A stretch of DNA of 35,254 bases, taken from Isosphaera sp. (GTDB lineage: Bacteria > Planctomycetota > Planctomycetia > Gemmatales > Gemmataceae). The notes below the pieces were generated by a model. The model had not been told where the DNA came from. It was given only the letters and a program-made list of their open reading frames with translations, and did no database searches. The stretch covers positions 1 to 35,254 of the forward strand of contig PNKH01000082.1 of NCBI GenBank assembly GCA_013822345.1, in the 5' to 3' direction. Below, piece after piece: positions 6,117 to 32,040 of this stretch; position 1 is the stretch's first letter, and each line of letters begins with the position of its first letter. The translations under genes were made by a program, and so were the position numbers.

Positions 6117-6935
6117 TCAGCCCTCGTCCAGCCGCCGGGCGGCGGCCTCGCAGTACCGCCCCTCGGCCTCGACACCGATCGCCCGGCGGCCGAGCCGGCG
6201 GGCGGCGAGGAGTGTGGTCCCGCTCCCGGCGTACGGGTCGACGACCAGGTCGAGCGGGTCGGTGTAGGTCCGGACGAGGTACTCCATGAGGCCGAGCGGC
6301 TTCTGGGTCGGGTGGCGGGAGTCCTGCTGCCGGAGGCTCGGCACGTCGATGACGCTCCCCGGATACCGGGCGGCGCGGGTCTCGTTCGGCTGGTAGGTGG
6401 CCCGTCCGAACGTGCCGTACCGGGTGTCCGCCCGCGGCCGCTGGGTGCGGCTCCGGTAAGCCGACCCGGGGACGAGCACCGGCCGGTACTTGTACCGCCG
6501 GGGGGCGAAGACGAGCACCGACTCGTGCTTCTTCATAGGCTGGTAGCGGGCCCCGCCGAAGTTCGCCGCCCGGGACTTCCGCCAGATCCACTCGTGCCGG
6601 AACCACCCGAGGTTGCTCGTCACGGCGGCGGCCGTGAACGGCTGGCTGGCGGTGAGGGCGACCGACCCGGCCGGCGCGAGCAGCCGGGCGCAGGCCCGCC
6701 AGAACGCCGGCAGGTCGGGGGGCGTGTCCCACGGCCGGGCGGTCGCCCCGTAGGGCGGGTCGGTGAGGACGAGGTCGACGCTCCCCGGCTCGAGTGCGGG
6801 GAGGACGTCCCGGCAGTCGCCGTGGTAGAGGACGACCCCGCCCCGCTCGTAGAAGGGCGGCGGTCGCCGCGCGGGTGGGGGAACCTCGACGCCCGCGGCC
6901 GCCCTCCCGGCTCGCCGTTCCCCGGACCCCGTCAC
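6117..6935 (-). CDS. DNA (N4/N6) methyltransferase, beta class
   Basis: A protein of about 272 residues that would transfer a methyl group from S-adenosylmethionine to an exocyclic amino group of adenine or cytosine. The catalytic motif DPPYGAT (about residues 58-64) precedes the SAM-binding motif DPYAGSGTTLLAA (about 231-243), which is the beta-class order. HPTQKPLGLMEYLVRTYT just before the SAM motif is also typical. The segment between holds the predicted target-recognition region (WIWRKSRAANFGGARYQP, KKHESVLVF). The GTG at 6933-6935 overlaps the TGA of the helicase gene (GTGA), implying translational coupling. No cognate restriction enzyme is adjacent except possibly the HNH protein 2 kb away, so it may be an orphan or anti-restriction methylase. 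The recognition sequence is not predictable. Confidence 0.88.
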   Translation of the reverse strand: MTGSGERRAGRAAAGVEVPPPARRPPPFYERGGVVLYHGDCRDVLPALEPGSVDLVLTDPPYGATARPWDTPPDLPAFWRACARLLAPAGSVALTASQPFTAAAVTSNLGWFRHEWIWRKSRAANFGGARYQPMKKHESVLVFAPRRYKYRPVLVPGSAYRSRTQRPRADTRYGTFGRATYQPNETRAARYPGSVIDVPSLRQQDSRHPTQKPLGLMEYLVRTYTDPLDLVVDPYAGSGTTLLAARRLGRRAIGVEAEGRYCEAAARRLDEG

Positions 6936-11992: not shown

Positions 11993-12303
11993 GCGGGCCG
12001 CAGCCGGCCCCGCTCCGCGATCGCCGCCGGGAAGTCCGCCGGCTCCGTCCCCTCGGCGAGGAGCCGGGCCACCAAGTCCTCCACGTCCCAGAGCGCCAGC
12101 TCCAGCCCCTCGCTCCCGGCCTGAACCTCCCCCCGCGGCGGGCAGGACCGGGCCAGCCGCCTCGTCCAAGCCTCGTGGCCCGCCTTCAACTCCCGCGCGA
12201 GGTTCTCCGTCGTCCGGAGGAGCAGCCGCTCCGCCTTGAGTCGGTGGTGTAGCCGGGGCCGGCTTTCGAGGAGTCCGAGGGCCATCGTCTTGTACAGCAT
12301 CAT
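11989..12303 (-). CDS. Small helical hypothetical protein upstream of the helicase
   Basis: A 104-residue protein beginning MMLYKTMALGLLESRPRL at the ATG at 12301-12303. It is rich in predicted helix (RLKAERLLLRTTENLARELK, then GLELALWDVEDLVARLLAEG) and may form a coiled coil. I cannot assign a function. Its TGA (11989-11991) overlaps the presumed start of the helicase-methylase, so it is likely a cofactor or regulator made with it. The frame is open upstream to 12351. One frame over, an ATG at 12398-12400 starts a 30-residue stretch (MATTHTKHSRRPAPTAGATL then FDLDTP) that would fit as its N-terminus if one base were skipped near 12330. The gene may therefore be frameshifted or start at 12400. 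Confidence 0.65.
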   Translation of the reverse strand: MMLYKTMALGLLESRPRLHHRLKAERLLLRTTENLARELKAGHEAWTRRLARSCPPRGEVQAGSEGLELALWDVEDLVARLLAEGTEPADFPAAIAERGRLRPA

Positions 12304-12466
12304 CTGATCCTCCGGGGTGGAGCGGGGTGTCGAGGTCGAAGAGCGTAGCACCGGCCGTCGGGGCCGGGCGGCGCGAGTGTTTGGTGTGAGTCGTCGCCAT
12401 GGCCGCTACCCGTTCGCGCCCGCCAGGGGGCTGCGGCGGGCCGCGGGGGCAGCCGGCCGGCAAAGA

Positions 12467-17600: not shown

Positions 17601-18032
17601 GCGGTGAATGCCGACGTGGAGGATCTGCCCCATGATGGACGCCGGCGGGGTCATCTGCGGGCGAATGCCGGGCGGCATCGGGACTGTCGAAAGCCGCTCG
17701 GCGACGACCTGCCGCGCGTAGCGGACATCCGTCTTCCAACCGAACTCGACGTAAATGACGTTCATCCCCTGGCTCGACTGGCTGCGGACCGCTTCGACGC
17801 CGGACGCCCCGAGGATGGCCGTCTCGATCGGCTGCGTGACGAGCGTCTCGATCTCTTCCGGGGCGAGTCCCGGGCACTCAGTCAGGATCACCACCCGCGG
17901 CCGGTCGAGGTCCGGGAAGACGTCGATGGGGAGCGTCGTGGACAGATACCCCCCGTAGACGAGCACGACGAGGCACCCGGCGAGTACGAGCGGCCGGTGG
18001 GAGAGGGCGAGGCGGATGACGGCGTTGAGCAT
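14604..18032 (-). CDS. Heavy-metal efflux RND pump (CusA/CzcA family)
   Basis: A ~1142-residue inner-membrane proton-driven transporter, the pump of a tripartite efflux complex. Features in order: TM1 in LVLAGCLVVLVYGGYLSTTL, then PIDVFPDLDRPRVVI typical of heavy-metal RNDs; TM4 motif MGELVDDAIVDVENIFRRL with the paired Asp of the proton relay; the second periplasmic half from about residue 550; and the closing FLIHPGLFW in TM12. The TM4 motif differs from both the textbook CzcA (DFG..DGAV) and CusA (AIG..VDAAIVM) versions, so the metal is unclear. An insertion of about 85 residues sits in the first porter domain between GQILHVGI and RTTADWLVRPRL. The ATG at 18030-18032 lies 4 bases past the fusion-protein stop. 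Confidence 0.9.
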   Translation of the reverse strand: MLNAVIRLALSHRPLVLAGCLVVLVYGGYLSTTLPIDVFPDLDRPRVVILTECPGLAPEEIETLVTQPIETAILGASGVEAVRSQSSQGMNVIYVEFGWKTDVRYARQVVAERLSTVPMPPGIRPQMTPPASIMGQILHVGIHRQTGPKGGDLAMLGETGLVAERVGSGGTATVAVWRPRERNDPSKWEQVKAEQLSWEPTAPGRKATAVLGGRTHTATFRTPLEERMDIRTTADWLVRPRLLKLPGIAEVIVMGGDRKQYQVLVDPDRLQEYNVSLQEVEEAIKSNNLNSSGGFIEEGQSERPVRVIARLGPVPQKVLADLRQVPVKTTLDRAVLLGHVATIEEGPAPKRGDASIDGHAGVVITIVKQPHADTRKLTEDVKAVLRDTEASLPPDTVVNTDLFQLKSFIDRGVYYVEEALLLGAALVVVVLFLFLLNLRTTFITLTAIPLSLVITTLVFRAISLLTGTELSINVMTLGGIAVAMGELVDDAIVDVENIFRRLRENNALPAPKPALVVVYEASREIRSAIVFGTAVVILAFLPLFALSGVEGRLFIPLGIAYIVSILASLVVSLTVTPVLSYYLLPASAAAHGHEDGLLLRVLKRAATRLIRFSMDRATTLLVVTWVVVGLSAWQLTRLGSDFLPKFDEGSVQINVALPGGSSLKASNEASALIDAKLKTMQRTPENPDGPVLHFARRTGRAELDEHAQPVNVGEYILTMNPDSGYRRDEFLRTLLTGLRSDVPGVELEAEQPLSHLISHMLSGVNAQIAIKLYGDDLDKLRELAGQIRDVIADVPGVTPPIIDPQERVDELHVVLRPEDLALYGLSREYVAEFVQTALKGEAVSQVLEGQRRFDLVIKLKEPYRSDAFKLGDLRLDLPNGRGQIRLREVADFPTASSGPNLVNRENVRRKQVVRCNVSGRDLGTTVEEIERRVRSRVTMPEGYFVEFGGQFEAQRSATLLISVLAGVSLAGIFIVLMMLYPSARITLQILNAIPTAFIGGVLALLVTGQTLTVASLVGFVSLGGIAVRNGILLVTHYFHLMKEEGESFTPQMVMRGSLERLAPVLMTALTAGIALLPIVLGGRKPGLEILYPVATVILGGLLTSTFCEFLIHPGLFWRFSGRDAERLARTKDSDEALLRAAA

Positions 18033-18036
18033 GGTC

Positions 18037-19440
18037 TTACTCCTTCCCCTCGTCTTCGTTCTTGTGGAGGCTCCCGTCGGCGTGGACGTGGAAGCCCTTC
18101 GGGACGCCACCCGACTGCGACTTCGTCATCCGGCCGAGCTGCGTCGCGGCCCCCTGCACCACGAACGACCCGGGGACGATCGCACCGTCGTTCGCGACGA
18201 CCACCCGGTCCCGGTCTTCCGTGAGGACGCGGACCGGTTTCCGCTCGAAAGTATTCACGTTCTGGGTGAAGACGAACGCCTCCGCGCCGTCGCGGGCGAC
18301 GGCGTCCTTCGGGAAGACGAAGACGTTGTCGAGCCTCTCGACCCGGACGAGGAGCTTCACCTTCTGCCCCGGGCGGAACCGCCAGAGCATCTGCGTGCGG
18401 CCGTCGTCTTCGATCGCCCGGGACTGGTTCTCGAGCGGGATGCGGAAGGCGAAGGTGCGGTTGACCGGGTCGATGGTGTTCGCGAGGTGGCGGATGCGGA
18501 ACGGTTGGTCGAGTGTCGGCCAGTCGGTCGCCTCCTCCTCCTCCTGGAAGTCGATCTCGACCGGCCACTTCTCGCGGACGCTCCGCTCGAGGAGCGGGGT
18601 CTCGTCGCGAAACGCGCGGCCCTCGACGGCGAGGAGTTGGTGGTTTGCGAGCAGGCAGAGCGTCTGCCCGGCCTGCACCTGCTGGCCGAGCTCGGCCTTC
18701 AATTCCTGGACCTCGAACGTCGGGGCGGTCGGGTCCGAGCTCGGCCCCGCGAGGGACGGCGTCGGGGACGGAGCCGGAGCCCGCGCGGGGACGGGGATGG
18801 TGATCTCGGTCACGAATTTGCCGTCTGCTGCGGCGCTAACCTGATCCGGGCGGAGTCCGCGGTTCTGTAGGTCCTCGCGGTAGGCTTTCGCGGCCACCTC
18901 GAGCCGGCGGATCTGGTTGTCCACCTCGATGACCTTCGACTCGGGGACGGCACCGCCCGACGCCGCGAGCCGCTGCCGCTGGGCCTGTGCGAGCTTGATG
19001 TCCTGGGTCGCCTTGAACAGCTCGGTCTGCGCGAGGTGCAGCGACTCACTCATCAGCCGGAGGGTGAAGAGCGTGTCACCGGGCTTCACCGTGTCGCCGG
19101 GAAAGAAGCCGACCTTCGTCACGACGCCGGTCACGGGGGCCACGACCCCGCGGTCGCTCTGGCCGGGCCGGTCGACGACCATGCCGGGGACGCGGATCGT
19201 CTTCCAGAAGGTCTGCGGGGCGGCGGACTTCGCGGTGATGCCGAGGTTCTGTTGGGCCTGCTCGGAGACGATGATCTTCACCGGCGGGGGGCCGACCTCT
19301 TCCCCACCTGAAGGGGTCTCTGTGGGCGGCGTGCGGAGGACGTACGGCAGCCACGAGCCGCGGGTGAAGTAGGCGGCGAGCGCGAGCCCGGCGACGAGGG
19401 CGAGGGCGGAGAGCGGCTTGATAGTGCGGAGAAATCTCAT
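18037..19440 (-). CDS. Periplasmic adaptor (membrane-fusion) protein of the RND efflux system
   Basis: A 467-residue HlyD/CusB-type adaptor that bridges the inner-membrane pump to the outer-membrane channel. An uncleaved N-terminal membrane anchor (LSALALVAGLALAAYF) is followed by the beta-barrel strand region (NLGITAKSAAPQTFWKTIRV), the lipoyl half GVVAPVTGVVTKVGFFPGDT, and a helical hairpin (QTELFKATQDIKLAQAQRQR). Next come the second lipoyl half (ELGQQVQAGQTLCLLANHQL), the beta-barrel and the membrane-proximal domain. The C-terminus adds GFHVHADGSLHKNEDEGKE, a charged tail with two His, possibly for metal. The ATG at 19438-19440 starts MRFLRTIKPL. It is 5 bp from the channel gene and 4 bp from the pump gene, a typical cotranscribed triad. 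Confidence 0.9.
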   Translation of the reverse strand: MRFLRTIKPLSALALVAGLALAAYFTRGSWLPYVLRTPPTETPSGGEEVGPPPVKIIVSEQAQQNLGITAKSAAPQTFWKTIRVPGMVVDRPGQSDRGVVAPVTGVVTKVGFFPGDTVKPGDTLFTLRLMSESLHLAQTELFKATQDIKLAQAQRQRLAASGGAVPESKVIEVDNQIRRLEVAAKAYREDLQNRGLRPDQVSAAADGKFVTEITIPVPARAPAPSPTPSLAGPSSDPTAPTFEVQELKAELGQQVQAGQTLCLLANHQLLAVEGRAFRDETPLLERSVREKWPVEIDFQEEEEATDWPTLDQPFRIRHLANTIDPVNRTFAFRIPLENQSRAIEDDGRTQMLWRFRPGQKVKLLVRVERLDNVFVFPKDAVARDGAEAFVFTQNVNTFERKPVRVLTEDRDRVVVANDGAIVPGSFVVQGAATQLGRMTKSQSGGVPKGFHVHADGSLHKNEDEGKE

Positions 19441-19445
19441 GGTGT

Positions 19446-20876
19446 TCACCGTGTCTTTGTCGGTTGCGGCGCGGGCGCGGCCGGCCAGTTGTCTTCGAGG
19501 GTGAGTCCCGCGATCTCGCTCGCCGCCCGCCACATCTCGCCGAGCGCGCGGAGGTATTCGAGCCTCGCCTCGCCGACCGCGCGCTGGGCTTGGAGAACGC
19601 GGAGGTATTCGAACTGTCCGCCCTGGTACGCCTTGAGCGAGAGCTGGTAGGTCTCTTCGGCCCGCGGGAGGATGGCGGCCTTGTACCGCTCGGCCCGCTC
19701 GCGCGCGGCGGCGTAGGTGCCGACCGAGGTAGAGAGCCGTCCCACCAAGTCGTTCCGGACGCGTCCGACCTCCCCCGCGGCCTCACCCACCTGGGCCTTC
19801 GCCGCGTAGATGTTCCCCTGGTTCCGGTTCCAGAGCGGGACGGGCACGCTCACGCCCACGCTCCAGTCGTTCGAGTCGTTCTGCCCCTGGCGGGTGTAGC
19901 CGCTGCTCACGGTCACGTTCGGGACCGGGTCCACCTCGGCCCGCCGGGCGAGCAGCTGTGCCCGTTCGACGCCGAGTTCCGCCGACCGGAGCTCCGGGTG
20001 GACGGAGAGCATGTAGGCCCGGGTGCGGTCGAGGTCGTAGTTCGGGAGGGGTGTTTCGAGGTCGCCGGCGACGGTTGAGAGCGGAAGCTCCGGTGCGCCG
20101 ACGCTCGCCGCGAGCCGCTGGAAGGCCGGCGGGATGGACCGCTTGGTCGCGTTCAGGTCCGCCTGGTAGCGTTCCGCGTCGACTTCGAGTTGGACGACGT
20201 CGAGCCGCGCGACTTCCTTCGCCCCCAGGAGCTTGTTCGCGGTCGCGAGCGACTGGCCGGCGAGCTTCACCAAGTCGGAGAGCACCTCGGCCCGCTTCTG
20301 GAGGAGGAGCAGTTCGGCGTAGTTCTGCCGCACCTCGGTGAGCACCCGGTAGCGCTCGGCGGCGAGTGCGAGGCTCGCCCGATCGACCTGCTTCATCGCG
20401 GCTGCCCGGGAGAGCCCGAGCTTGTCGGCGGTGACGATCTCTTGCGACGCGCCGGCCGACCAGATGCCGCTCGGCCCGGTCCGGTCGCCGAGCTCGTCGC
20501 CGGTGACGCTCACGACCGGGTTCGGGTAGAGGCCCGCCTGGACCGCCTGCCCGCGGGCGGCTTCCACCGCCCACGACGCCTGAGCGAGCCGCGGGTTCCG
20601 CTCCATCACGAGGCGGGTGAGATCGGGAAGACCCAGGCTCGTCGGCAGGGACGCCTCGGGTGCCGCGACGGGCGGCTTCGGTGACAAAGAATTCGTGTCA
20701 CCCGGCTGTGGAGCGGGTCGCGAGTACGCGGCCTGGACGACTCCCGGCCCGGGCGTGGGGGAGGCGGCCGCGCGCGGACGCGAGACTGCCGAGTTCTGAT
20801 GCGCGGCGCATCCCGCCGCCCCGGCCACAGCAGTGGCCAAGGCAACCACCGCCACACGGGAGATGAACTGGTGCAT
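19446..20876 (-). CDS. Outer-membrane efflux channel lipoprotein (TolC/CusC family)
   Basis: A 476-residue outer-membrane factor. The signal peptide MHQFISRVAVVALATAVAG ends in a lipobox-like GAAGC, so it is probably lipidated like CusC. A Pro/Ser/Ala linker of about 60 residues precedes two tandem OEP repeats. The first begins LPDLTRLVMERNPRLAQASW with the conserved AxGxxxxAGLYPNPV motif (QAVQAGLYPNPVVSVTGDEL). The second begins HPELRSAELGVERAQLLARR with DPVPNVTVSSGYTRQ and VPLWNRNQGN. The ATG at 20874-20876 is preceded by GCGGAGGAATTCTT, a strong ribosome-binding site; the frame is open further upstream without a better start. It is the first gene of the channel-adaptor-pump set. Confidence 0.9.
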   Translation of the reverse strand: MHQFISRVAVVALATAVAGAAGCAAHQNSAVSRPRAAASPTPGPGVVQAAYSRPAPQPGDTNSLSPKPPVAAPEASLPTSLGLPDLTRLVMERNPRLAQASWAVEAARGQAVQAGLYPNPVVSVTGDELGDRTGPSGIWSAGASQEIVTADKLGLSRAAAMKQVDRASLALAAERYRVLTEVRQNYAELLLLQKRAEVLSDLVKLAGQSLATANKLLGAKEVARLDVVQLEVDAERYQADLNATKRSIPPAFQRLAASVGAPELPLSTVAGDLETPLPNYDLDRTRAYMLSVHPELRSAELGVERAQLLARRAEVDPVPNVTVSSGYTRQGQNDSNDWSVGVSVPVPLWNRNQGNIYAAKAQVGEAAGEVGRVRNDLVGRLSTSVGTYAAARERAERYKAAILPRAEETYQLSLKAYQGGQFEYLRVLQAQRAVGEARLEYLRALGEMWRAASEIAGLTLEDNWPAAPAPQPTKTR

Positions 20877-21049
20877 AAGAATTCCTCCGCGTAATGCGGG
20901 ACGTGATCGTGACGACTCCGAGGAGCCGGGGGCTGCTTGTTCTGGCGGAATGGTCGGAGGCGGGATGATGCCGCCGCGCTCGCCCGCAGTGGGCGGCAAG
21001 CACGCGCGTGCCGAGTACCCTCAGCCGACCCGTTGGAGATGAGGCGTGG

Positions 21050-22359: not shown

Positions 22360-23754
22360 TCACGTCGTGTACCCCGGGTTCCAGCTGTTCGAGCGGTGGC
22401 GGGCCGGCACGGCCGCCCGGCTCGCGGGGTCGCGGAGCGTCATGTCGATCACCTCGTACAGAGGGCCGCCGTTCAGCAGCCGCAGCACCTCCGCGACGAC
22501 GAGCGTCGCGGCCGTCGCCCCGACGAACGGCGCGCCGACCGTGCGGGTCGCGAGCCGCACGAGCCCGCACGCGTCCATGCCGTCCGCGGCGAGTTCGTCG
22601 TACGCGCCGCCTCGCGGCGCGGGGTCACCGACGGCCCGAACGTTACCGCCCCACTTCGCACGGGCCGTGGTCGAGGCGGGGAACGAGTGGAGTCGCAGCG
22701 CGAGGTACTCGGCCGGTCCCGCCCCGAGCCCGGCCTCGATCACGCAGTCGAAGCCCGCGTCCTCGTAGGCGGCCCGCGCCAGCGCGTTGTCCACCCCGCC
22801 GAGCAACAGCCGCGGCTCGTCGCCCGTTACGGTCATCCCGCCCGGGAACAGCCGCTCGACGATTCGCGTGCGAAACCCGCGCGCCTCCGCCCACCGCGCC
22901 ATCCCCCGCGTCTTGAGCTCCCCGACCAGCGCCGGACCGGTGAGGAGGGAGGTGCTGTCGTTGGCGAGCGTCAGCCGGTCGAAGTCCTGTAGGACCAGTT
23001 CGACCTCGTCCGGCTCGCGGTAGGGGAGGAGGCCCAGCGTCCAGAGGTACGCCTGCCCCAAGTGCCCGAGCCCCACGAGCCACAGCCGCGAGGGAAGGAC
23101 GATCGAGGTCGGGCCCGCCGGAGCACGCTCCCAGTCCGCGTGCTCCGGTGCCCAGAGCGAGAGCCCGATCGACCGCCGGCCGGCCATCGGGTTGCCCCGG
23201 ACGTGCTGGAACAACTCCGACACGCCGAGCGCGCCGGCGAGGACCGCGGCCGGCGTGATCGCCTTCGCCTCGCCCAGCCGCCGCCCGTCCGACACCGGGA
23301 TCACCCCGCCCCGCCAGTCCTCGAACGTGACGGCGAGCGACGCGGGGCAGTCGGGCCGGACGGCCCCGCCGCCGATCGCGAGCGCGGGAACGCCGGCCGG
23401 CAACTCCCGGACGACCCGCCCGCCCAACTTCTCCACCGCCTCCGCGAGCGTTTCGCAGTCGGGCAGCGGGACGACGAGTGGGCCGCCCAGATCGCCGGCC
23501 ACGGCCACCCCGCCGAGCATCGCCCGGCGCGCGGTGTTCACGGCCGTGAGGAGTGCCGCCTGGTGCGCCGGCGACTCCGCCGCCTCCGGCCCGACCGCGA
23601 CCGCGAGTCGGTAGGTGCGGAACAACTCGTAACCGGAGGCGACCGAGTCCACCTCGCCGGTGTCGAGCGCCATCTTCACGGCCCGGTGCAACGTGTCGGC
23701 GTTGGGCAGCGTCCCGGTTGTTTCGTCTGCGTCGGCGATGTGGTTCGTGATCAT
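22360..23754 (-). CDS. E1-like Ubl-activating enzyme (ThiF family)
   Basis: A 464-residue protein predicted to adenylate the C-terminus of a ubiquitin-like protein and take it as a thioester. Residues about 1-215 form an N-terminal domain I cannot assign. The ThiF/E1 Rossmann domain follows: WLVGLGHLGQAYLWTLG (GxGxxG, 228-233), LVLQDFDRLTLAND (Asp257/Asp259, Arg260, Asn265 for ATP-Mg), and LLLGGVDNALARAAYEDAG. Cys396 in DGMDACGLVRLA, just before a helix VGAPFVGATAATLVVAEVLR, is the likely catalytic Cys. The ATG at 23752-23754 overlaps the TGA of the JAMM gene (ATGA), so the two are translationally coupled. The cassette with Ubl, E2 and JAMM argues against a thiamine or molybdopterin role. It is the last gene of the operon, next to an integrase remnant. 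Confidence 0.85.
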   Translation of the reverse strand: MITNHIADADETTGTLPNADTLHRAVKMALDTGEVDSVASGYELFRTYRLAVAVGPEAAESPAHQAALLTAVNTARRAMLGGVAVAGDLGGPLVVPLPDCETLAEAVEKLGGRVVRELPAGVPALAIGGGAVRPDCPASLAVTFEDWRGGVIPVSDGRRLGEAKAITPAAVLAGALGVSELFQHVRGNPMAGRRSIGLSLWAPEHADWERAPAGPTSIVLPSRLWLVGLGHLGQAYLWTLGLLPYREPDEVELVLQDFDRLTLANDSTSLLTGPALVGELKTRGMARWAEARGFRTRIVERLFPGGMTVTGDEPRLLLGGVDNALARAAYEDAGFDCVIEAGLGAGPAEYLALRLHSFPASTTARAKWGGNVRAVGDPAPRGGAYDELAADGMDACGLVRLATRTVGAPFVGATAATLVVAEVLRLLNGGPLYEVIDMTLRDPASRAAVPARHRSNSWNPGYTT

Positions 23755-24236
23755 TTCCAGCTCCAGCGAACTTTGATGTACCCACGGGCCCGCCACCCGC
23801 TCAGGTTCGTCCACCTGTGGTCGCCCTCGTAGCGGTACACGCCGAGCCGGTGCCGCCAGATGGACCCGTCCGCGAACCGCGGCACGATGATGGCGACGTG
23901 GCCGGACCGGGCGACCATCGGGTTCCGGCGGTCGGCGTCACTCTGATACGGCTCGCCGGGGTGCGTGTGGATGTCGGCCAGGACGGTCAGCCCCCCGGCA
24001 CGGCACGTCTCCCAGAGTTTGGGGAAGGCATTGCCGTCCAGGATGCACACGCCGCTCGAGTAGGCCGCGGGGTCGAGCTCGTCGTAGTAGACGCAGCGGA
24101 CCGCCCGCTTCCGCCGGCCGCCCACGGTGCCGAGCACGAAGCAGCCGCTCTCGTGGCGGCCGCGGCCCCGCCGCTTCAGCTCGGCCATGCACCCGTACCA
24201 GAGCGCGCGGGGGAAGACGATCTTCGACTCAGCCAT
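23751..24236 (-). CDS. JAB/JAMM metallo-isopeptidase (deubiquitinase-like)
   Basis: A 161-residue zinc protease of the Mov34/MPN/PAD-1 (prokaryotic JAB) family, expected to process the Ubl C-terminus or cleave Ubl conjugates. The full JAMM set is visible: Glu29 in HESGCFVLG, His90-x-His92 in [11 protein letters not shown], and Ser99-x-x-Asp102 in [11 protein letters not shown]. The central strand [16 protein letters not shown] and the C-terminal [16 protein letters not shown] also fit the fold. Length is that of a stand-alone JAB domain. The ATG at 24234-24236 lies inside the end of the E2 gene (8-bp overlap), and its TGA overlaps the E1 start. Catalytic residues are intact, so it is probably active. 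Confidence 0.88.
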
Positions 24237-24717
24237 TCCGCACCCCCGTGTAGTCGCCCGAGTTCAGGAGCTCGTGGAGCTTCCGCAGATAGAGCACGAT
24301 CCCTTCCGTCTGCGACCAGACGCAGGACGGGTGCTCCGTGCGCCAGTTCTCGTGGCCCGCCGCGCTCACCCGGTCGCACGGCAGGTAGAGGCAGGTGCCG
24401 TTCTGCCAGTCGGGCCGGAACACGGACGGCACGATCGACCGCCCCGCCGGCCAGCGGTTCGTCGGCAGCGGCGCGTTTGCGTCCGGGTCCCACGGCCGCG
24501 CCGTCGGTGCCTGCTGCGGGTAGCCGACGCAGTCGAACCGGAACCAAAATTCGGGCGGGCCGCCCGGGCGCTCCGCGGCCGCGACGGCGGCATGCACGAA
24601 CGGCCACTCGATCGCCCCGGGCCGCCAGCGGCCGAGGCACACCCCCAGTTGGAACGGGCCCGCGTCGAGGTCGGCGCGGAGGGCCCGCTCGTCGGGCCGG
24701 ACGGCAACGGCTTCCAT
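24229..24717 (-). CDS. E2-like Ubl-conjugating enzyme
   Basis: A 162-residue protein I assign as a prokaryotic E2 from fold-level pattern and operon position. A central segment [20 protein letters not shown] looks like the E2 F.f..YP..pP strand and loop. A later [17 protein letters not shown] places Cys109 where eukaryotic E2s have NGxICL with the catalytic Cys. The C-terminal helix region ([20 protein letters not shown]) also fits. Conserved aromatic residues follow ([14 protein letters not shown]). Cys114 is a second nearby Cys. The gene starts 3 bp after the Ubl stop and overlaps the JAMM gene, a tight operon. E2-like families in bacteria are very diverse, so without a structure or profile search the call is good but not certain. 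Confidence 0.72.
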
Positions 24718-24720
24718 CGG

Positions 24721-25215
24721 CTAGCCCTCGATCCGCTTGATGGGCACGAGGTCGAAGCACAGCGCGCAGCACCCGCACACGAGCGAGCCGATGTGCGTGT
24801 CCGGGTCCGGCCGGTCGGTGGTCCCGCAGAGCTGGAGCACGTGCTCGGTGGCGTCCACCGGCGACATGCGGATCACCTTCACGAACTCCTTCTTCACTTT
24901 GTCCACCGTGGCCGCGGGCGGGAACGCGAGCGTCTCGGTCCGCTCGTTGAAGTGGAGCGTCACCTCGACCTTCTTGCACCGGTGCACGTGGACCCGGTGC
25001 TTGTCGCGGACGCCGGCGGCCTTCAGGGTCACGGCCGGGTCGAAGGGGGCGTCCGCGTCGTGTCCGAACACGCACGCGCCCTCCTTACGGTCGTCGGGGA
25101 GCCCGGCGCGGCGGGCGGCTTCGAGCACGTCGGCGATCGTCGCGTTCTCGTCGAGCTGGATCAGCTCCACGCGGCGGTGGCCTTCGTACTGGAGGAAGAG
25201 TTGAACGGTCGGCAT
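24721..25215 (-). CDS. Tandem ubiquitin-like modifier (two beta-grasp domains)
   Basis: A 164-residue protein that reads as two ubiquitin-like domains. Domain 1, residues about 3-79: VQLFLQYEGHRRVELIQLDE, helix TIADVLEAARRAG, and the closing strand KHRVHVHRCK. Domain 2, about 82-160: VEVTLHFNERTETLAFPPAA, helix TVDKVKKEFVKVIR, and FDLVPIKRIEG. The chain ends in Gly164 with no extension, so the C-terminus could be activated directly. Just before the last strand is an unusual Cys cluster (CGCCALC, residues 147-153), perhaps a metal site or disulfides. The ATG at 25213-25215 follows AGGAGAACCGACC. It is the first gene of the Ubl-E2-JAMM-E1 operon. It matches the multi-ubiquitin type of prokaryotic Ubl; the target is unknown. 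Confidence 0.78.
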   Translation of the reverse strand: MPTVQLFLQYEGHRRVELIQLDENATIADVLEAARRAGLPDDRKEGACVFGHDADAPFDPAVTLKAAGVRDKHRVHVHRCKKVEVTLHFNERTETLAFPPAATVDKVKKEFVKVIRMSPVDATEHVLQLCGTTDRPDPDTHIGSLVCGCCALCFDLVPIKRIEG

Positions 25216-25329
25216 GGTCGGTTCTCCTGTCGGGTTGACGGCGTTGTTTCGCCTCTACCCTTCTTCAACCGGGAGCCGAACCGGACCGGAAAGCAGCTGC
25301 GAGAAAAAGTGCGGCGTGCCGAAGAAAAC

Positions 25330-25409: not shown

Positions 25410-28400
25410 TTACAGCGGCGTGCCGTGGGACGGGCAGACGAAGAAGTACGGGCAGGTCGGGCACTCGTCGTCCCTCGCCGGCGCGGGCGCGAAGTCCCCG
25501 GCCGCCGCGTTCTGGACGAGCACTTCCAACTTCCGCAGTACCTTCTCGAGCTCCTTTCGCGTCGTCGTCTTGCTGACTCGGTCGCCGGTGAGCAGCGAGA
25601 CGTGCGTGAGCGTGACGGCCTCGACGCCGTCGTCGCTGCACACCGCGGCCTGCACCAGGTCGAACTTGGTCTTTGACTTCTCCGTCTTCGCGAGCCGGCT
25701 CGCTTTGAGCCGCAGCACGACCGGGCCGGCCGCGGTCCGTTGCACGCCGTCCGCACCGCAGCTGACGACCGTACCGCTGTCGGGAAGCCTGACGGTGCGC
25801 TCGTGCGGCAGGCTCTCGCCGTCCATCGCGGCCACCGCGTGGTCGATCATCCGCCGCGCGATCGGCCGGTAGATCGGCTCGAACGCGTGGTCGACCGGCC
25901 CGTGGGCGGCCCAGTCCGAGTCGAACCGGGCGGCGACGCCGGCGCGGCGTTCCTCGGCCGACGGCACGCCCCTCAGCCACCCGACGCTCGCGCGGATCGC
26001 CGACTGGAACCGGAGGTACACCGACCGCTCGTCGGTGCCCGGCAGTCCGAGCACGTGCGCGTAGTAGAACTGCCGCGGGCAGCGCTCGTACGCTTCGAGT
26101 TCGTATGCGGCCCAGGTCGTCCGCGTCGGCCCCGGCGTGAGGCGAGGGTGCGGCGGGTCCGACGGCCCCGATTCGGCCCAGCCGGCCGCACCGTCGATGA
26201 CGCCCGGGAGGTGCCCGGCGATCGGGTCGAGGAACGGCGACGGGGTGGCGTTCACGCCGCCGTTCCTCTTGGACCGTGACAGGTGGAGGGCGTCGCGGGC
26301 GCGGGACAGGGCGACGAAGAACAGGCTCTCCTCCTCGGCCCCCTTCGTCAGGAGATCGTCCGGGCGGGTCATGCCGTCCGGCGGCGGGCACGCCTCCGCC
26401 TGGTTTTTCAGAGGGAACTGCCCTTTCCCCAGCGTCGCCAGGTGCACCACCGGGAACTCGAGCCCCTTGCTCGCGTGCACCGTCATCAGCCGCACCGCGT
26501 CGATGTCGCGGGCCGCGGCCGGGAGCTGCCGTAGCTGCTTCTCCTCGTCCAGCACCTCGAGCCGGCGGACGTGGTCGAGGAACGCCCGCTTCGGGTCACA
26601 CCCCTTGGGTGCCTTGAAGGCGAACGCGAACTGGAGGAGCTGGTAAATGGCGAGAAGCCGCTGCTGACCGGCCACGCTCCCGTCGGCGAGCAACCGGCGC
26701 AGCGGGTCCGGACGCCCGAACAAGTAATTCGTCAGGAACCGGTGCGGGGGCATGGGCCAGTCGGCGAACGAGACATCGGCGAGCAGCCGCGCGAGGCGGG
26801 GCCGCCCGTCGGGGCTGACGCCATCGATCTCGTCCAGTCGCCGGAGCGCGTCGATGGTCGATACCTTCTGCGCTCGCCGCCACGCGAAGACCGTCACGAT
26901 GTCGTCGTGCGACACCCCGTAATGGTGGAACTGGGCGACGTGCATGAGCGCCGGCCCGTGCGGCTCGGCGACCAGGGAAAGCAGCGCGAGCAGATCCTGG
27001 ACTTCGGGCCGCTCGAAGAAGTCCCCGAAGTAGAGGCACGGGATCCCGCACCGTTCGAAGTGGCGGACGAGCCGCGCGAGCGTGATGTGCGACCGCGCCA
27101 GTACCGCGTGGTCGGCGTACCGGCCGCCTCCCGACACATGAGCCCGGATGCGTTCGGCGACCCCGTTCGCCTCAGCCTCGCGCGTCGCGGCGATGTCGTA
27201 CGTCACCGCGCCCGTGTTTTCGCCGCGGTGGGGTGAAAGGTTCTTTTGAGAGGAAACGCGGCCGGCGACCATCTGCCGGCCGAACGTCTCGAAGGTGCGG
27301 ACGATCGCCCCGCCCGAGCGGTAGTTGACCGACAGGTCGGTGAAGGCCGCGCCGGGGAAGTCGCCGGCGAACCGCGTCATGTTCAGCGGGGACGCCCCGC
27401 GGAAGCGGTAGATTGCCTGCCGGACGTCGCCGACCACCCACGGCCCCCGCCCGGGCGTCACGACCTCCCTCAGCAACTGGCTGCTGGCGTGGTTCATGTC
27501 CTGGTACTCGTCCACCAGGACGTGTGCCCGCTCGGCCCGCACCGCCTCGGCAACCTCGGGGTTGTCTCGCAGCAGGGTTACGGGCAGCGCGACCAGGTCG
27601 CCGAAGTCCACCAGGCCCCGCTCCCGGAGCGTGCGGTCGTACACCGTGTAGACGCGGCCGACCTCAATCGCCTTCTCGGCGGCCTCCTCGTCATCCCCCG
27701 TCGCGGCCGCGTCGCGCATCGCCCGGCCGAGCTCCGTGTACCGCACCGGCGACACGAGTTCGTCCTTGGCGCGGCCGATGGCGCCCAGGAGCGACTTGAG
27801 CGGCAGCACCGGGTCGTACAGGTTCAGGTGGTGCTGGAGACCGAGCTGCGGCAGGAGTTCTTCGAGCAGCATCAGGCTGTCGGTGCGGTCGAGCAGCTTC
27901 GGCGGCCGGGTGAACCCGATCTCGCCGCCGTACTTCCGCAGGAGTTCGAGCCCGTACGCGTGGAACGTGCCGGACCACACGGCGGTCGCCCGCTCGCCGA
28001 CCGCCGCGCGGATGCGCGACGCCAGGTCTTGCGCCGAGAGGTTGGAGTAGGTGAGGGCGAGGATCGAGGCGGGGTCTTCGCCCTGCGAAATCAGGTGGGC
28101 GGCCCGCCCGACGAGCGTCCGCGTCTTCCCCGACCCGGGGCCGGCCCGGACGAGCCGCGGGCCGGGCGGGCACTCAATCGCCTCGCGCTGGCTGTCGTCG
28201 GGCGGCGACTCCGGCCGGGGCGGGGGCTCGGGGGCCGACGCGGGCAGCAGCAGCGCGTCGGCGAGCTGGTGCATCACGAGGTCGACCGGCACCCCGAGCT
28301 CGGCGGCGATCGCGTCCGCGACGAAGTCGCCGCCGAGGCACCGGCGGCGGAGCTTCTCCCGCGGGACCAGGAACTCGCGCGCGAAGACATTCGCCAGCGC

Positions 28401-28787
28401 CTCGGCCCGCTCCTTCGGGCTGTACGCATCGACCTCGCCGACGAGCGACTCCTCCGGTGCCGACGGGCTTGACACGTCGAGGTCGCACCCGGCACACGCC
28501 GCGCCCGCTTCGTCGAGCCAGTGGTGCGCGAACTCGTGCGCGACGTGGAAGCGGGCGACCGGTTCGGCCGTCTCCTCCGCGTAGTAGATCTCCCTACGGT
28601 CGTGGTCGTACGCGGCCTCGGCCCCGTTGAGCAGCACGTCCCCGGCCGGCACCGCGATCCGCGTTAGCCGCGTCGCCGCCGCGGCCGCGTCGAGCAGCCG
28701 CCCCGCGGGCACGAGTTCGTCACCCAGCCCCGCGAGCTCTTGGTGCCGCTGCCGCGCGAGCCGCCGGACCTCGCCCCAGGTGCTCAT
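25410..28787 (-). CDS. ImmA/IrrE metallopeptidase fused to UvrD-type helicase with AddB-like Fe-S nuclease-fold domain
   Basis: A 1125-residue three-part protein. Residues 1-180 are a peptidase M78 (ImmA/IrrE, DUF955) domain: HEFAHH at 84-89 and RAEALANVFAREFLVP (Glu129 the likely third zinc ligand). Next is a superfamily 1A helicase: Walker A AGPGSGKT (215-222), LVDEYQDMNHASSQLL, GDVRQAIYRFRGA, VHASKGLEFPVVHL, and VALSRARDALHLSR. The C-terminus resembles the Fe-S PD-(D/E)XK domain of AddB/RecB-like proteins: YERCPRQFYYA (Cys about 902) and CPTCPYFFVC (Cys 1109, 1112, 1118). In the nuclease core, VVLRLKAS (Arg1026-Leu-Lys1028) has Arg where the D/E-x-K acid is expected. The ATG at 28785-28787 overlaps the TGA of the XRE-like gene. 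ImmA-type enzymes cleave repressors; the fusion suggests a DNA-damage or phage-sensing switch, which is inferred. Confidence 0.88.
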   Translation of the reverse strand: MSTWGEVRRLARQRHQELAGLGDELVPAGRLLDAAAAATRLTRIAVPAGDVLLNGAEAAYDHDRREIYYAEETAEPVARFHVAHEFAHHWLDEAGAACAGCDLDVSSPSAPEESLVGEVDAYSPKERAEALANVFAREFLVPREKLRRRCLGGDFVADAIAAELGVPVDLVMHQLADALLLPASAPEPPPRPESPPDDSQREAIECPPGPRLVRAGPGSGKTRTLVGRAAHLISQGEDPASILALTYSNLSAQDLASRIRAAVGERATAVWSGTFHAYGLELLRKYGGEIGFTRPPKLLDRTDSLMLLEELLPQLGLQHHLNLYDPVLPLKSLLGAIGRAKDELVSPVRYTELGRAMRDAAATGDDEEAAEKAIEVGRVYTVYDRTLRERGLVDFGDLVALPVTLLRDNPEVAEAVRAERAHVLVDEYQDMNHASSQLLREVVTPGRGPWVVGDVRQAIYRFRGASPLNMTRFAGDFPGAAFTDLSVNYRSGGAIVRTFETFGRQMVAGRVSSQKNLSPHRGENTGAVTYDIAATREAEANGVAERIRAHVSGGGRYADHAVLARSHITLARLVRHFERCGIPCLYFGDFFERPEVQDLLALLSLVAEPHGPALMHVAQFHHYGVSHDDIVTVFAWRRAQKVSTIDALRRLDEIDGVSPDGRPRLARLLADVSFADWPMPPHRFLTNYLFGRPDPLRRLLADGSVAGQQRLLAIYQLLQFAFAFKAPKGCDPKRAFLDHVRRLEVLDEEKQLRQLPAAARDIDAVRLMTVHASKGLEFPVVHLATLGKGQFPLKNQAEACPPPDGMTRPDDLLTKGAEEESLFFVALSRARDALHLSRSKRNGGVNATPSPFLDPIAGHLPGVIDGAAGWAESGPSDPPHPRLTPGPTRTTWAAYELEAYERCPRQFYYAHVLGLPGTDERSVYLRFQSAIRASVGWLRGVPSAEERRAGVAARFDSDWAAHGPVDHAFEPIYRPIARRMIDHAVAAMDGESLPHERTVRLPDSGTVVSCGADGVQRTAAGPVVLRLKASRLAKTEKSKTKFDLVQAAVCSDDGVEAVTLTHVSLLTGDRVSKTTTRKELEKVLRKLEVLVQNAAAGDFAPAPARDDECPTCPYFFVCPSHGTPL

Positions 28788-29416
28788 TTGGTTCCCTTCC
28801 TCTCGGATTCGACCGCGCGGACCCACTCGGCCTTCGCGTCGGGCGAGAGGCCGGACCCCTGAACGGCGTCGAGGAACTCCTCGGTCTTTAACTCCGGTTG
28901 CTTCTTCGCCTTGTAACTGTGTAGCGGGATCGGCTCGGCGGCGAACAGCCGTTGGACGACGGCGTCTCTGAGCCGAAGGACTTCCGAGACTAGCCGCACG
29001 AGCAGCGCCGGGATGCTCCCGGGGCGGATCAGCCGGCGGTCGAGCTTCGCCACGAGGCGGCCGTCCAGGTTGCAGCGGGCGGCGAACTCGGCCTCGGTGA
29101 TGCCGCGCTGGGCGATCGCTTTGCTCAGCCGCGTCACCTCAGCGTCCACGACGGCCGCGGGCTCGGCAGCGGTCTGACGGTACACGAGGTTGAGCGCGTG
29201 GCTCACGAGCCGGCTGCTGATCTTCTCCTCGTCGATCGCGGTCTCGTCGGGAACGGTCGCCTGCTCGGCCCACGTCGCGAAGAACTCGACGAGGTCGGCC
29301 TTGTGCTGCGGGTACACTGCGACCCACCGCTCCAGCGCCTCGTGGGTCGGCTTCGCCTCCTTGTACATGATGGTGTCCAGGATCTCCTCGAGGTTCATGG
29401 GTCCGTCACTGTTCAT
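28784..29416 (-). CDS. XRE-like helix-turn-helix protein, partner of the ImmA-type peptidase
   Basis: A 210-residue protein. Residues about 1-50 form a helical domain (MNLEEILDTIMYKEAKPTHE, then ALERWVAVYPQHKADLVEFF). Residues about 90-155 look like an XRE-type HTH: LSKAIAQRGITEAEFAARCN, LDGRLVAKLDRRLI, and IPALLVRLVSEVLRL. ImmA/IrrE peptidases usually pair with an XRE repressor that they cleave, so this is the obvious candidate substrate. The ATG at 29414-29416 overlaps the stop of the sigma-like gene by 11 bp (the ATG at 29396-29398 is an alternative), and its TGA overlaps the helicase start (ATGA). The three genes are therefore made together in fixed ratio. The N-terminal domain is not recognised. 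Confidence 0.65.
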   Translation of the reverse strand: MNSDGPMNLEEILDTIMYKEAKPTHEALERWVAVYPQHKADLVEFFATWAEQATVPDETAIDEEKISSRLVSHALNLVYRQTAAEPAAVVDAEVTRLSKAIAQRGITEAEFAARCNLDGRLVAKLDRRLIRPGSIPALLVRLVSEVLRLRDAVVQRLFAAEPIPLHSYKAKKQPELKTEEFLDAVQGSGLSPDAKAEWVRAVESERKGTK

Positions 29417-30218
29417 GGCTCACTCCTAGTGCATTTCGCATCTCCGAGAACGCGGTGCGCATCCAGTTGCGGATCGTGCGGTCGCAGACGCCGAAGTAGG
29501 TGCTGACCGTCTGCCGATTCGCGTCCTGGTCGGTGATCGGCCAGCCTTGTAGGTGGTGCAAACCGACCGCCAGTCGGTGGTCTGGGTTACTGACGGCGGC
29601 GAGGGCGCGACTGATTTGAGCCGGGGCCAGGGCTCGGAACTCCCTCTCGGCGACGAGGTCTTCGGGGGAGGGGCCGTCGTCCGGGACCGTTTGGGCTCCG
29701 TCCGTCACCGCGCCGTCGTCTTCGCTCACGTGCGTTGGGAACTGCCGCGTGCGCCCGAGGTGCTTTCGTTTCGCGGCCTGTTTGAACGCCCGCCGCTGCA
29801 CGGCCAGGTCGAACGAGCACTCCAGGAACTCGCTCTGGCCGCTCGTCTGTTCGGCCAGCGCCAACTCCATGACTTCGAGGCCGACCGCCCCGACGATCTC
29901 CTCGGTGATCGTCGGGCTGAACCCGCGGGCGGAGGCCGTGGCGATTCGGGTTGTCCGCTTCGCGAGGGCGTCGAGCAGGCGGCCCAGCACGGTCTTCTCG
30001 CCAGTCGGCCAGAGCCGCCGGATCAGGTGCATCACGGTCTCGCTCTTCAACCCGGCGGCCGTCCACTGGGACTGGTCGAGCGCGAGCATGCGCTCGATCT
30101 CGGCCTCGACGTCGGGGCGACGGGTGTAGACGTCACCGCCCGCCGAACGGTGGGTAAGCGGGGGCACCGCCCTCGAGGAGGGCGGTGGCGGATCAGGGGG
30201 TGGATCGGGCTCGCTCAT
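29406..30218 (-). CDS. Sigma-70-like factor (region 4 HTH)
   Basis: A 270-residue protein. After a Pro-rich disordered start (MSEPDPPPDPPPPSS), residues about 55-175 are helical and could be a divergent region 2 (SEFLECSFDLAVQRRAFKQA). The C-terminus, ISRALAAVSNPDHRLAVGLH then TVSTYFGVCDRTIRNWMRTA and FSEMRNALG, looks like a sigma region 4 HTH that would contact the -35 element. An acidic linker (HVSEDDGAVTDGAQTVPDDG) lies between. I chose the ATG at 30216-30218; a GTG at 30264-30266 would add 16 residues. It heads the unit with the XRE-like and peptidase-helicase genes (11-bp overlap), so it may switch on the island's own promoters. A DNA-binding regulator that only resembles a sigma factor is the alternative. 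Confidence 0.6.
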   Translation of the reverse strand: MSEPDPPPDPPPPSSRAVPPLTHRSAGGDVYTRRPDVEAEIERMLALDQSQWTAAGLKSETVMHLIRRLWPTGEKTVLGRLLDALAKRTTRIATASARGFSPTITEEIVGAVGLEVMELALAEQTSGQSEFLECSFDLAVQRRAFKQAAKRKHLGRTRQFPTHVSEDDGAVTDGAQTVPDDGPSPEDLVAEREFRALAPAQISRALAAVSNPDHRLAVGLHHLQGWPITDQDANRQTVSTYFGVCDRTIRNWMRTAFSEMRNALGVSHEQ

Positions 30219-30376
30219 AACCTGGCTCAACCGGGTGGCGGGGACGACCGGAAAGAAATATCGCACTTTTTTCCGCTCCGAGGTCGAAAGAGCGTACCGG
30301 CAGAACCGACGGGAAATAAAGGGCGGACCCGCCGCCGGGGTTTATCCGTCCCCCTGGCCTTCCGGCTGAATGGGCC

Positions 30377-30413
30377 TTGAGTTTGTAAGGAAAACAGGGT
30401 AAGATTCCTTACA
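30377..30413 (+). promoter_or_regulatory. abiE promoter with perfect inverted-repeat operator
   Basis: TTGAGT (30377-30382) and TAAGAT (30400-30405) are 17 bp apart. A perfect 9-bp inverted repeat, TGTAAGGAA (30384-30392) and TTCCTTACA (30405-30413), brackets the -10 and ends on the first base of the antitoxin ATG. AbiEi antitoxins are known to repress their own operon through inverted repeats, so this is the likely operator. The start point predicted from the -10 falls at or one base before the ATG, implying a leaderless transcript. Confidence 0.75.
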
Positions 30414-31039
30414 TGATCGGCACCAGAAAAGCGACACAAAGCATTGATTCTCGGATACTTACCCGCATCCACGGGCGAGGTCGTGGTTCCGTGCTCGTGC
30501 CAGGGGACTTCCTGGACCTCGGGAGCCGCGAGGCGGTGGACTTAGCCCTCCACCGGCTTGCCCGAAAGGGGACGATCCGGCGGCTCGCCCGCGGGGTGTA
30601 CGACTTCCCGAAGGAACACCCCGTACTAGGCCTGCTCTCGCCGTCCGCCGACACGGTGGCGAAGGCCCTGGCCGGCCGCGACCGCACCCGGCTCCAACCG
30701 GCCGGGGCGTACGCGGCCAACGCCCTCGGCTTGTCCGAGCAGGTGCCGGCGAAGGTGGTGTTCCTGACCGACGGCCCGAGCCGGACGGTGAAGATCGGCC
30801 CGACGACCATCCAACTCCGGCGGACCACGCCGAAGAACATGGCGGCGGCCGGCCGCCTGAGCGGCCTCTTGATTCAGGCGCTCCGCGAACTCGGGCAGGA
30901 GCACGTGACCCCGGCGCGGAGGGAGTACCTGAAGCGGACGCTCCCGGCCGACAAGCGGCGAGAGCTCGTGAAGGATCTGCCGCTCGCCCCGGCGTGGATG
31001 CACCCGATCTTTCGGGAGCTCGCGGAGGAGGAGGCATGA
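30413..31039 (+). CDS. abiEi: AbiEi-type antitoxin/autorepressor (DUF6088 family)
   Basis: A 208-residue protein. The N-terminal ~75 residues are a winged HTH (SVLVPGDFLDLGSREAVDLA, HRLARKGTIRRLARGVYDFP) that binds the operon promoter. The C-terminal part (TRLQPAGAYAANALGLSEQV, KVVFLTDGPSRTVKIGPTTI) is the AbiEi C-terminal domain. In this type IV toxin-antitoxin class the antitoxin counters the nucleotidyltransferase toxin without binding it stably, and represses transcription. The ATG at 30413-30415 is the first base pairs after the -10, with no room for a ribosome-binding site. The stop overlaps the toxin start (ATGA), so the two are coupled. Family assignment is confident; that the pair is active is inferred. 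Confidence 0.85.
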   Translation: MIGTRKATQSIDSRILTRIHGRGRGSVLVPGDFLDLGSREAVDLALHRLARKGTIRRLARGVYDFPKEHPVLGLLSPSADTVAKALAGRDRTRLQPAGAYAANALGLSEQVPAKVVFLTDGPSRTVKIGPTTIQLRRTTPKNMAAAGRLSGLLIQALRELGQEHVTPARREYLKRTLPADKRRELVKDLPLAPAWMHPIFRELAEEEA

Positions 31040-32040
31040 GGCTCGGCTTCCTCGAACTCCCGCCGGACGAGCGCCGCCTGTACGTCGAGCAGGCGGCGCT
31101 CCGGCGGAACGCGTCCGCCGTGGTCCTGGAGAAGGACTTCTGGGTGTGCTGGCTCTTGGGCGTGCTGTTCGGGTCGGAGTTCGCCGGGAGCTTGGTGTTC
31201 AAGGGCGGCACCTCGCTGTCGAAGGTGTTCGGCGTCATCGAGCGGTTCTCGGAAGACATCGACCTGTCGCTCGCGCCGGAGTTCCTCAAGCTCCCGGAAG
31301 CCGGGACGAGCCGCACCCAGGCGAACAAGTGGATGACGAAGGCCGAGGCCGCGTGCGGGGAGGCGGTGCGGGTGCAGATTGCGCCCGCGCTCGAGGCAGC
31401 GGTTGAGGCGGTGCTCGGGAAGAGGGGCGGCGGGTGGTTCGAGTACCTGACGGACCCTAACACGAAGTCGCCGGTCCTCCTGTTCCACTACCCGTCGGCG
31501 CAACCGCCGGGGTTCGAGTACCTGAAGCGTTCGGTGAAGCTCGAGTTCGGTTCGCTCACCGACCAGCAGCCGGTGGGCCGCCACCCGGTTCGGCCGTGGT
31601 TGGCCGACGCCCTGCCCGCCGCATTTCCCGACTGGCGGTGCGAGGTCGTCGCGCTGGAGGTGGAGCGGAGCTTCTGGGAGAAGGCGACGATCCTCCACAC
31701 GGAGTACCACCGGCCGGCCGAGAGGCCGACGCCCGACCGCTTCTCCCGGCACTACGCGGACACGGCGGCGCTCGCCCGGCACCCCGCGGCGGCCGGTGCG
31801 ATCGACCGGCACGACCTCCGCGACCGCGTCGTCGTGTGGAAGGGGCAGTTCTTCGGCAGCTCGTGGGCGAGCTACGACCTCGCGAAACCCGGGACGTTTC
31901 GGCTCGTACCGCCGGCCGCCCGCAGGGCCGCACTCCGGCGCGACTACGAGGCGATGCGGGACATGTACCTGACGGAGCCCGCCACGTTCGACGAGGTGTT
32001 GGCGGTCTTGGCGGAGGTCGAGCAACGCATCAACGGGTAA
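31036..32040 (+). CDS. abiEii: AbiEii-type nucleotidyltransferase toxin
   Basis: A 334-residue protein of the AbiEii/AbiGii toxin family, nucleotidyltransferases that add nucleotides to tRNA acceptor ends or otherwise stop growth and abort phage infection. Motifs: EKDFWVCWLLG (32-42), LVFKGGTSLSKVFG (the GGTSLSK fingerprint, about 53-66), and FSEDIDLSL (71-79) with the two metal-binding Asp. Further on, ERSFWEKATILHTEYHR carries the conserved Lys of motif III. All catalytic positions I know of are present. The ATG at 31036-31038 overlaps the antitoxin TGA (ATGA). Upstream the frame is open to 30994, but that would lie within the antitoxin gene. A hairpin follows about 90 bp downstream. Confidence 0.88.
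   Translation: MRLGFLELPPDERRLYVEQAALRRNASAVVLEKDFWVCWLLGVLFGSEFAGSLVFKGGTSLSKVFGVIERFSEDIDLSLAPEFLKLPEAGTSRTQANKWMTKAEAACGEAVRVQIAPALEAAVEAVLGKRGGGWFEYLTDPNTKSPVLLFHYPSAQPPGFEYLKRSVKLEFGSLTDQQPVGRHPVRPWLADALPAAFPDWRCEVVALEVERSFWEKATILHTEYHRPAERPTPDRFSRHYADTAALARHPAAAGAIDRHDLRDRVVVWKGQFFGSSWASYDLAKPGTFRLVPPAARRAALRRDYEAMRDMYLTEPATFDEVLAVLAEVEQRING

Follow-up and report, generated by a model that had tools for sequence, protein, structure and literature searches.

Why should a sigma-like factor, an XRE-like protein and a fusion of an ImmA/IrrE-type (M78) peptidase to a UvrD-family helicase be encoded in a single overlapping unit beside a ubiquitin-like operon? The question is raised by contig PNKH01000082.1 of Isosphaera sp. 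(GenBank assembly GCA_013822345.1), which we analyzed over its full 35,254 nucleotides (the window, one entire contig of a 7.47-Mb genome). We consider it likely that these three genes (the trio) form a dedicated sigma-based expression switch for the neighboring Bil operon, in which the fusion would cut the XRE-like protein upon engaging DNA. An initial annotation, made from the sequence alone, had described the overlapping unit at 25410-30218 with a sigma-like start at 30218, and both hold on the minus strand: the sigma-like open reading frame (ORF) opens mechanically at 30266 with 30218 as its likely start, and the sigma-like and XRE-like genes overlap by 11 nt, the XRE-like and fusion genes by 4 nt with a fusion start at 28787. 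The latter start is likely because Met14 of the window fusion is a methionine in all 12 rows of an alignment whose row starts we picked. The same annotation did not mention that the trio adjoins a Bil operon; a complete BilABCD operon for ubiquitin-like conjugation, matched by all four PADLOC models, lies directly downstream.

The trio spans phyla. Our first 39 loci comprised the window, four relatives (a full-length fusion was present in five of the 59 genomes searched, window included), 21 plasmid stretches picked from 91 plasmid records with a match before their neighbors were inspected, and 13 genome-collection loci, used of at least 80 found by two generic helicase patterns (L080 was inspected and left out). 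With hidden Markov models (HMMs) that started from one to three seeds, the XRE-like protein and the fusion were detected in 39/39 loci and the sigma-like protein in 38/39. In the one exception, L116, the sigma position is taken by a 222-aa ORF that matches nothing in Pfam; the sigma match of L022 is split over two frames, and that of L115 lies ahead of an IS256 element. Because the order recurs in 39 loci at 31-59% fusion identity to the window (11 rows measured), it goes beyond chance, and the three-gene unit of the initial annotation is conserved, with homologs of the fusion found together with their partners and the peptidase HExxH residues kept throughout.

A ubiquitin-like operon adjoins the trio in 35 of the first 39 loci, 14 of them Bil and 21 Bub-like with multi-Ubl (ubiquitin-like) and E1 genes (DUF6527 in 20 of the latter). 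IS66 genes stand between the fusion and the multi-Ubl gene in L017, and the contigs of L033 and L037 end with the flank not visible. The trio was likewise accompanied by a ubiquitin operon in seven of seven later loci (L119, L120, L121, L123, L145, L146, and L147), which, counting L017, brings the total to 43 trios accompanied by a Bil or Bub operon among 44 loci with a visible flank. Moreover, when 198 genomes from the window's class were searched, the XRE-like profile found seven places in six genomes; the six strong places, in five genomes, each hold a trio and a ubiquitin operon, and the one weak place has no trio. A scan of the phylum with the fusion profile returned 1/392, a figure that is no prevalence estimate because two candidates per genome were scored. 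The converse association fails, since ubiquitin operons also exist without the trio. Four stretches were fetched as presumably trio-less; L123 does have a trio, while L124 and L125 hold Bub operons with an upstream helix-turn-helix (HTH) gene and a separate ImmA/IrrE gene, no trio, and no sigma motif found near the operons.

In addition to their adjacency, the two units share a promoter-like sequence. A bipartite motif, TTnCCGGT-N15-CGATTA or a variant, precedes the ubiquitin operon and recurs either ahead of the sigma gene or within it, and the gap between the fusion and the Ubl gene often carries TTnCCGGT-N13-16-CGATTA. A two-block expectation-maximization (EM) model of 36 regions reached a log-likelihood of 139.1, compared with 11.5 ± 6.4 (maximum 26.1) for 40 dinucleotide shuffles from the same seed; two of the regions, from L017 and L118, did not cover the true gap. 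The sites inside the sigma gene, before it and in the later-fetched loci were outside the training set. Scanning both strands of the 39 loci (1.49 million strand-bases) at a score of 11 produced 53 matches. Of these, 24 precede the Ubl gene and 5 the sigma gene, 21 fall within the sigma gene's 3' end, and 3 are located elsewhere, the last three being before the sigma gene in L016, before a multi-Ubl gene behind an insertion sequence (IS) in L019, and before a cyclic oligonucleotide-based antiphage signaling system (CBASS) operon in L021. The two window copies have the same two blocks around an N11 spacer and belong to a 13-nt motif class, and the copy at the sigma gene, with its -10-like box, stops 8 nt short of the ATG at 30218, a distance that would suit a leaderless transcript. 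The initial annotation had suggested a common -35/-10 type upstream of 25215, 30218 and 30413; matching -35/-10-like pairs are present at the sigma gene and at BilA, and the AbiE pair at 30413 has none at score 11.

Some loci carry the motif at further genes. L121, a locus added once the model was final, holds a pair of ubiquitin operons, one of them divergent. A motif faces each operon, and the three motif copies of this locus all share a CCGAT variant. In L021, the CBASS operon (4406-5626, 3249-4481, and 2594-3253, minus strand: HNH-SAVED effector, cyclase, and E2) lies downstream of the Bub operon, with the motif copy about 50 nt before the HNH-SAVED effector gene. In L116 (Robbsia), the ubiquitin operon and the trio point away from each other, and their shared gap (4919-5069) contains a palindrome, TTTAGAGTGTTTACTCTAAA, and no sigma motif.

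In the window's own genome, the exact motif (a pattern taken from the two window copies) occurs at two places only, before the sigma gene and before BilA; a wider regulon in this genome was rejected as far as a two-mismatch search reaches, which gave four further sites against two for its reversed control. Similarly, in four other genomes 8/8 exact sites of the 15-nt pattern lie inside islands, two of them in that of L021, and one mismatch added a single island site and four sites outside the islands, compared with eight for the reversed control.

The site inside the sigma gene encodes (Y/F)R..L..AI. In 19 loci caught by this protein pattern, Arg is CGG in 17 (4.5 expected), Ala is GCG in 18 (6.5) and Ile is ATT in 17 (5.8), with expectations derived from the fusion genes of the same loci. 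This codon excess rejects mere protein conservation as the explanation for the site; the product of the probabilities is not a p-value because the loci are related. The match in L034 is another place, and L018, L019, and L027 carry the in-sigma site, missed by the pattern. In 29/34 loci the two copies agree at no fewer than 14 of 16 positions, compared with 16/204 base-shuffled partners (L033, L035, L037, L115, and L116 were left out, and the sigma gene of L016 and the post-IS gap of L019 were set by hand). Several loci with low model scores also have pairs of their own (L031 at 16, L109, L106, and L020 at 15, and L025 at 13 of 16 positions), as have L146 and L147, judged by eye. Collectively, the promoter link between the sigma unit and the ubiquitin operon has good support at the sequence level, in the form of dedicated promoter-like sites that include one at the sigma factor's own gene.

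The operon beside the trio has been exchanged repeatedly. On a tree built from 42 fusions, 18 with Bil and 24 with Bub (L033, L035, L037, and L114 left out), well-supported branches require the payload to have changed at least four times. Because L020, with a Bub operon, is the sister of the Bil-bearing window and both carry the 13-nt class, and L108 (Bil) is placed among Bub trios and carries their motif, the promoter class appears mostly to go with the trio and not with the payload.

In the switch that we favor, the XRE-like protein would at rest silence the sigma factor or the sigma factor's promoters. Phage attack or damage would expose DNA ends or single-stranded DNA (ssDNA), which the UvrD motor and the apparently nuclease-dead four-Cys domain of the fusion would engage, activating the M78 peptidase; the activated peptidase would cut the XRE-like protein, and the freed sigma factor would transcribe its own operon, as a positive loop, together with the Bil operon. 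Release of the sigma factor by DNA-triggered cleavage is probable by analogy, because CapP and PprI are M78 peptidases activated by ssDNA. The circuit outlined in the initial annotation, which this switch resembles, is thus partly supported.

Several observations weigh against this switch. The motif seed and threshold were chosen after the training loci had been inspected, and the model reaches 11 at the Ubl gene in 25 of the 37 loci whose gap is visible and in four of the seven later ones, sites below 11 being variants judged by eye, or nothing. L116 lacks both the motif and a recognizable sigma gene, the sigma gene of L115 is split by an IS, and L105 copies reach only 13/16. L035 has a trio without a ubiquitin operon; conversely, L122 has a Bil operon with neither a trio nor an HTH-ImmA/IrrE pair, and a motif score of 9.3 before BilA. 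The one-mismatch search of four genomes returned four sites outside islands, and cross-locus copy pairs reach 14/16 in 137/408 cases, because related loci share motifs by descent. L028 groups with trios of the 13-nt class (93/82) and has the 15-nt class. Lastly, it is conceivable that the motif serves the XRE-like protein as an operator.

The window sigma-like protein has no Pfam match at 0.1, and 11 of 14 aligned members match Sigma70_r4_2, the window member by itself not among them. Its predicted structure (predicted local distance difference test, pLDDT, 78.2) retrieves sigma chains in the first 32 Foldseek rows, with a best E-value of 0.0038; the root-mean-square deviations are large because the two domains sit differently. 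Foldseek and VIA rows span residues 70-285, with a best VIA Z of 9.2 for region 4 of 5fgm and 7.7 for 4lup (sigmaE region 2). A Pfam match to region 2 is absent, and Sigma70_ECF matches one of 14 members (0.0017). Among the profile matches listed, the sigma-like profile occurs in at least 100 of the 198 genomes of the window's class, and many of these matches cover positions of about 80-260 of proteins the size of extracytoplasmic function (ECF) sigma factors. A sigma gene remnant in L149 (7615-8073, minus strand), near transposase-like ORFs, matches the first 71 profile positions only and retains an upstream 15-nt-class motif (score 13.5). For the XRE-like protein, the sole Pfam match is poor (NikA-like, 0.073), and its AlphaFold model (pLDDT 85.2, 14 sequences) contains an XRE fold at residues 93-162, the stretch that the VIA rows cover, among them 3kxa (VIA Z 8.3), CapH 7t5u (7.2), DdrO 6rnz (6.6), and also SinR and ImmR. 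Its Foldseek E-values are not significant, and the common fold says nothing of function. Both assignments of the initial annotation, sigma-like and XRE-like, are borne out by these data. The XRE-like C-terminal tail bears a conserved (S)(Y/F)K-x-x-x-KP-like motif.

Two roles of the XRE-like protein can be set beside each other. We regard it as possible, with somewhat less than an even chance, that it is an anti-sigma factor and not a DNA repressor, and that proteolysis driven by a DNA motor commits the cell to ubiquitin-like immunity (in L021 also to CBASS) via one private sigma regulon; if so, one sigma switch could coordinate several defense systems. We think it unlikely that it is instead a classical DNA repressor, like CapH or DdrO, with the bipartite motif as its operator and the sigma-like protein as an accessory. 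The resemblance of its fold to CapH, DdrO, and ImmR, at E-values that are not significant, and the HTH-ImmA/IrrE pairs upstream of two trio-less Bub operons are what such a repressor would lead one to expect, whereas the whole motif has no dyad, keeps a constant spacing and faces the downstream gene at the listed sites. Together with the short distance of the window's sigma copy from the ATG, this is promoter geometry, and sigma region 4 is present in most members.

The fusion itself agrees with its initial description as an ImmA-type peptidase joined to a superfamily 1A (SF1A) helicase with an AddB-like C-terminus. Pfam places Peptidase_M78 at aa 72-188 (protein E-value 4.6e-9), UvrD-helicase at aa 211-491 (3.2e-60) and PDDEXK_1 at aa 905-1132 (5.4e-9). 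H97, E98, H101, and E142, the last of which is presumably the third ligand as in the M78 family, are invariant in 43/43 fusion rows. The helicase motif residues are retained where rows cover them, with one K to R at 787. C916, C1122, C1125, and C1131 are present in 39/39 covered rows and putatively hold an iron-sulfur (FeS) cluster. The catalytic (D/E)xK motif presumably lies at 1039/1041; position 1039 is D/E in 0/39 covered rows (the alignment is loose there), and at position 1041 Arg stands in 20 rows and Lys in 8. An active AddB/Cas4-type nuclease was rejected on the apparent loss of this presumed acid, which the initial annotation did not mention, and the absence suggests that the C-terminal domain binds DNA and does not cut it. 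No match to the fusion was found in phages at 1e-60, nor to the Kluyvera fusion DNA in E. coli genomes.

That the fusion is itself the defense effector, a GajB-like or AddAB-like nuclease with its neighbors merely its regulators, seems to us very improbable. PADLOC scores the helicase part as GajB (3.6e-63), but the presumed nuclease acid is gone and a GajA partner is unmatched among the eight neighboring proteins scanned, on which ground membership in Gabija was also rejected; the conserved coupling to a sigma gene and to ubiquitin operons through a common promoter motif likewise speaks against it. Least probable of all is that unrelated modules simply lie side by side in a shared defense island, as AbiE, SbcCD-like and AddAB-like genes do nearby in some loci, given the ubiquitin operon at nearly every visible flank, a gene order that holds across widely diverged loci, promoter-like sites that match between the two units, and payloads swapped while the promoter class mostly remains with the trio.

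Table 1. The trio, its promoter-like motif copies and the Bil operon in the window.
Feature	Coordinates	Strand	Remarks
Sigma-like gene	29406..30218	-	270 aa from ATG 30218; ECF-like sigma with extra N-terminal region
XRE-like gene	28784..29416	-	210 aa; helical N-terminal part, central XRE fold aa 93-162
M78 peptidase-UvrD helicase-degenerate PDDEXK with four Cys	25410..28787	-	mechanical ORF opens 28826
M78 (ImmA/IrrE) domain of fusion	28263..28613	-	HExxH H97/E98/H101 and E142, numbering from 28826
UvrD/SF1A helicase domains of fusion	26268..28196	-	motif residues kept
AddB/Cas4-like PDDEXK domain of fusion	25431..26114	-	presumed catalytic acid lost, Cys kept
Promoter-like motif copy 1, 5' of sigma gene	30227..30254	-	TTTCCGGTC-N11-CCGGTTGA
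Promoter-like motif copy 2, 5' of BilA	25265..25292	-	TTTCCGGTC-N11-CCGGTTGA
BilA, ubiquitin-like protein	24721..25215	-	PADLOC 7.7e-53
BilB (E2; Pfam DUF7665)	24229..24717	-	PADLOC 5.5e-61
BilC (JAB peptidase)	23751..24236	-	PADLOC 3e-60
BilD (E1)	22360..23814	-	PADLOC 9.5e-164

Other genes surround the unit. Divergent upstream of the trio, the window carries the AbiEi/AbiEii pair (30413-32040, plus strand), and AbiEi (DUF6088), mostly with AbiEii, is near the trio in 7/39 first loci (the window, L015, L022, L027, L110, L111, and L112) and in the later locus L120. SbcCD-like exonuclease/ATPase or AddAB-like (PD-(D/E)XK plus UvrD) genes stand beside the trio-ubiquitin islands of L014, L015, L105, L108, L115, L119, and L121, and of L111, L112, and L120. 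Farther away in the window are a 1843-aa ORF matching ResIII/SNF2/Helicase_C (6935-12463, minus strand) and efflux genes of the AcrB, HlyD, and OEP families (14607-20999).

A switch of this kind bears on how costly immune operons stay off and get turned on, and it predicts a promoter sequence, a transcript start and a cleavage substrate, while the motif points to further regulon members in the CBASS operon of L021 and the second ubiquitin operon of L121. We know of no earlier controller of an immune operon built on a dedicated sigma factor. A literature search by title found no description of the trio, many subscription papers and supplements being outside its scope, and section 7 of PMC13373217 does not mention it. 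According to parts of that paper, 219/544 Bub operons have CapW or CapH+CapP and 59/544 have CapK+CapS, so that known controllers cover at most 278/544 (219 plus 59), and the trio would be a further family.

The closest known system is CapH+CapP, in which a repressor is paired with an ssDNA-activated M78 peptidase that cleaves it, in CBASS and other immune operons (parts of PMC13373217 and PMC10904395). Similarly, the trio pairs an M78 peptidase with an XRE-fold protein beside an immune operon, CapH is among the structural matches of the XRE-like model, and the Bub operons L124 and L125 are preceded by a similar HTH and ImmA/IrrE pair. The trio peptidase, however, is not free-standing: it shares one polypeptide with a UvrD motor and a degenerate PDDEXK/four-Cys domain. 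The XRE fold occupies the middle of its protein instead of the N-terminus, and a sigma factor is added, so that the output would be a dedicated sigma-type promoter. Because the peptidase is fused and the sigma factor is the output, the trio may work like CapH+CapP yet is not one. The PprI-DdrO pair of Deinococcus governs a global damage regulon and is not known to have a helicase fusion or a sigma factor. Its ssDNA-activated metallopeptidase PprI (IrrE) cuts the repressor DdrO, as part of PMC10904395 describes. CapK+CapS and CapW are DNA-damage-responsive controllers beside Bub, Bil or CBASS operons (part of PMC13373217). Unlike the trio, these are kinase/STAS or WYL proteins, with no sigma factor and matching promoter. 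In its layout the trio also resembles ECF sigma/anti-sigma pairs freed by proteolysis, such as SigW/RsiW, in that a sigma gene is followed by the gene of a candidate inhibitor under a promoter that is likely autoregulated; it differs from these in the XRE fold of the candidate inhibitor and in its protease, which is of the ImmA/IrrE type and linked to a DNA motor.

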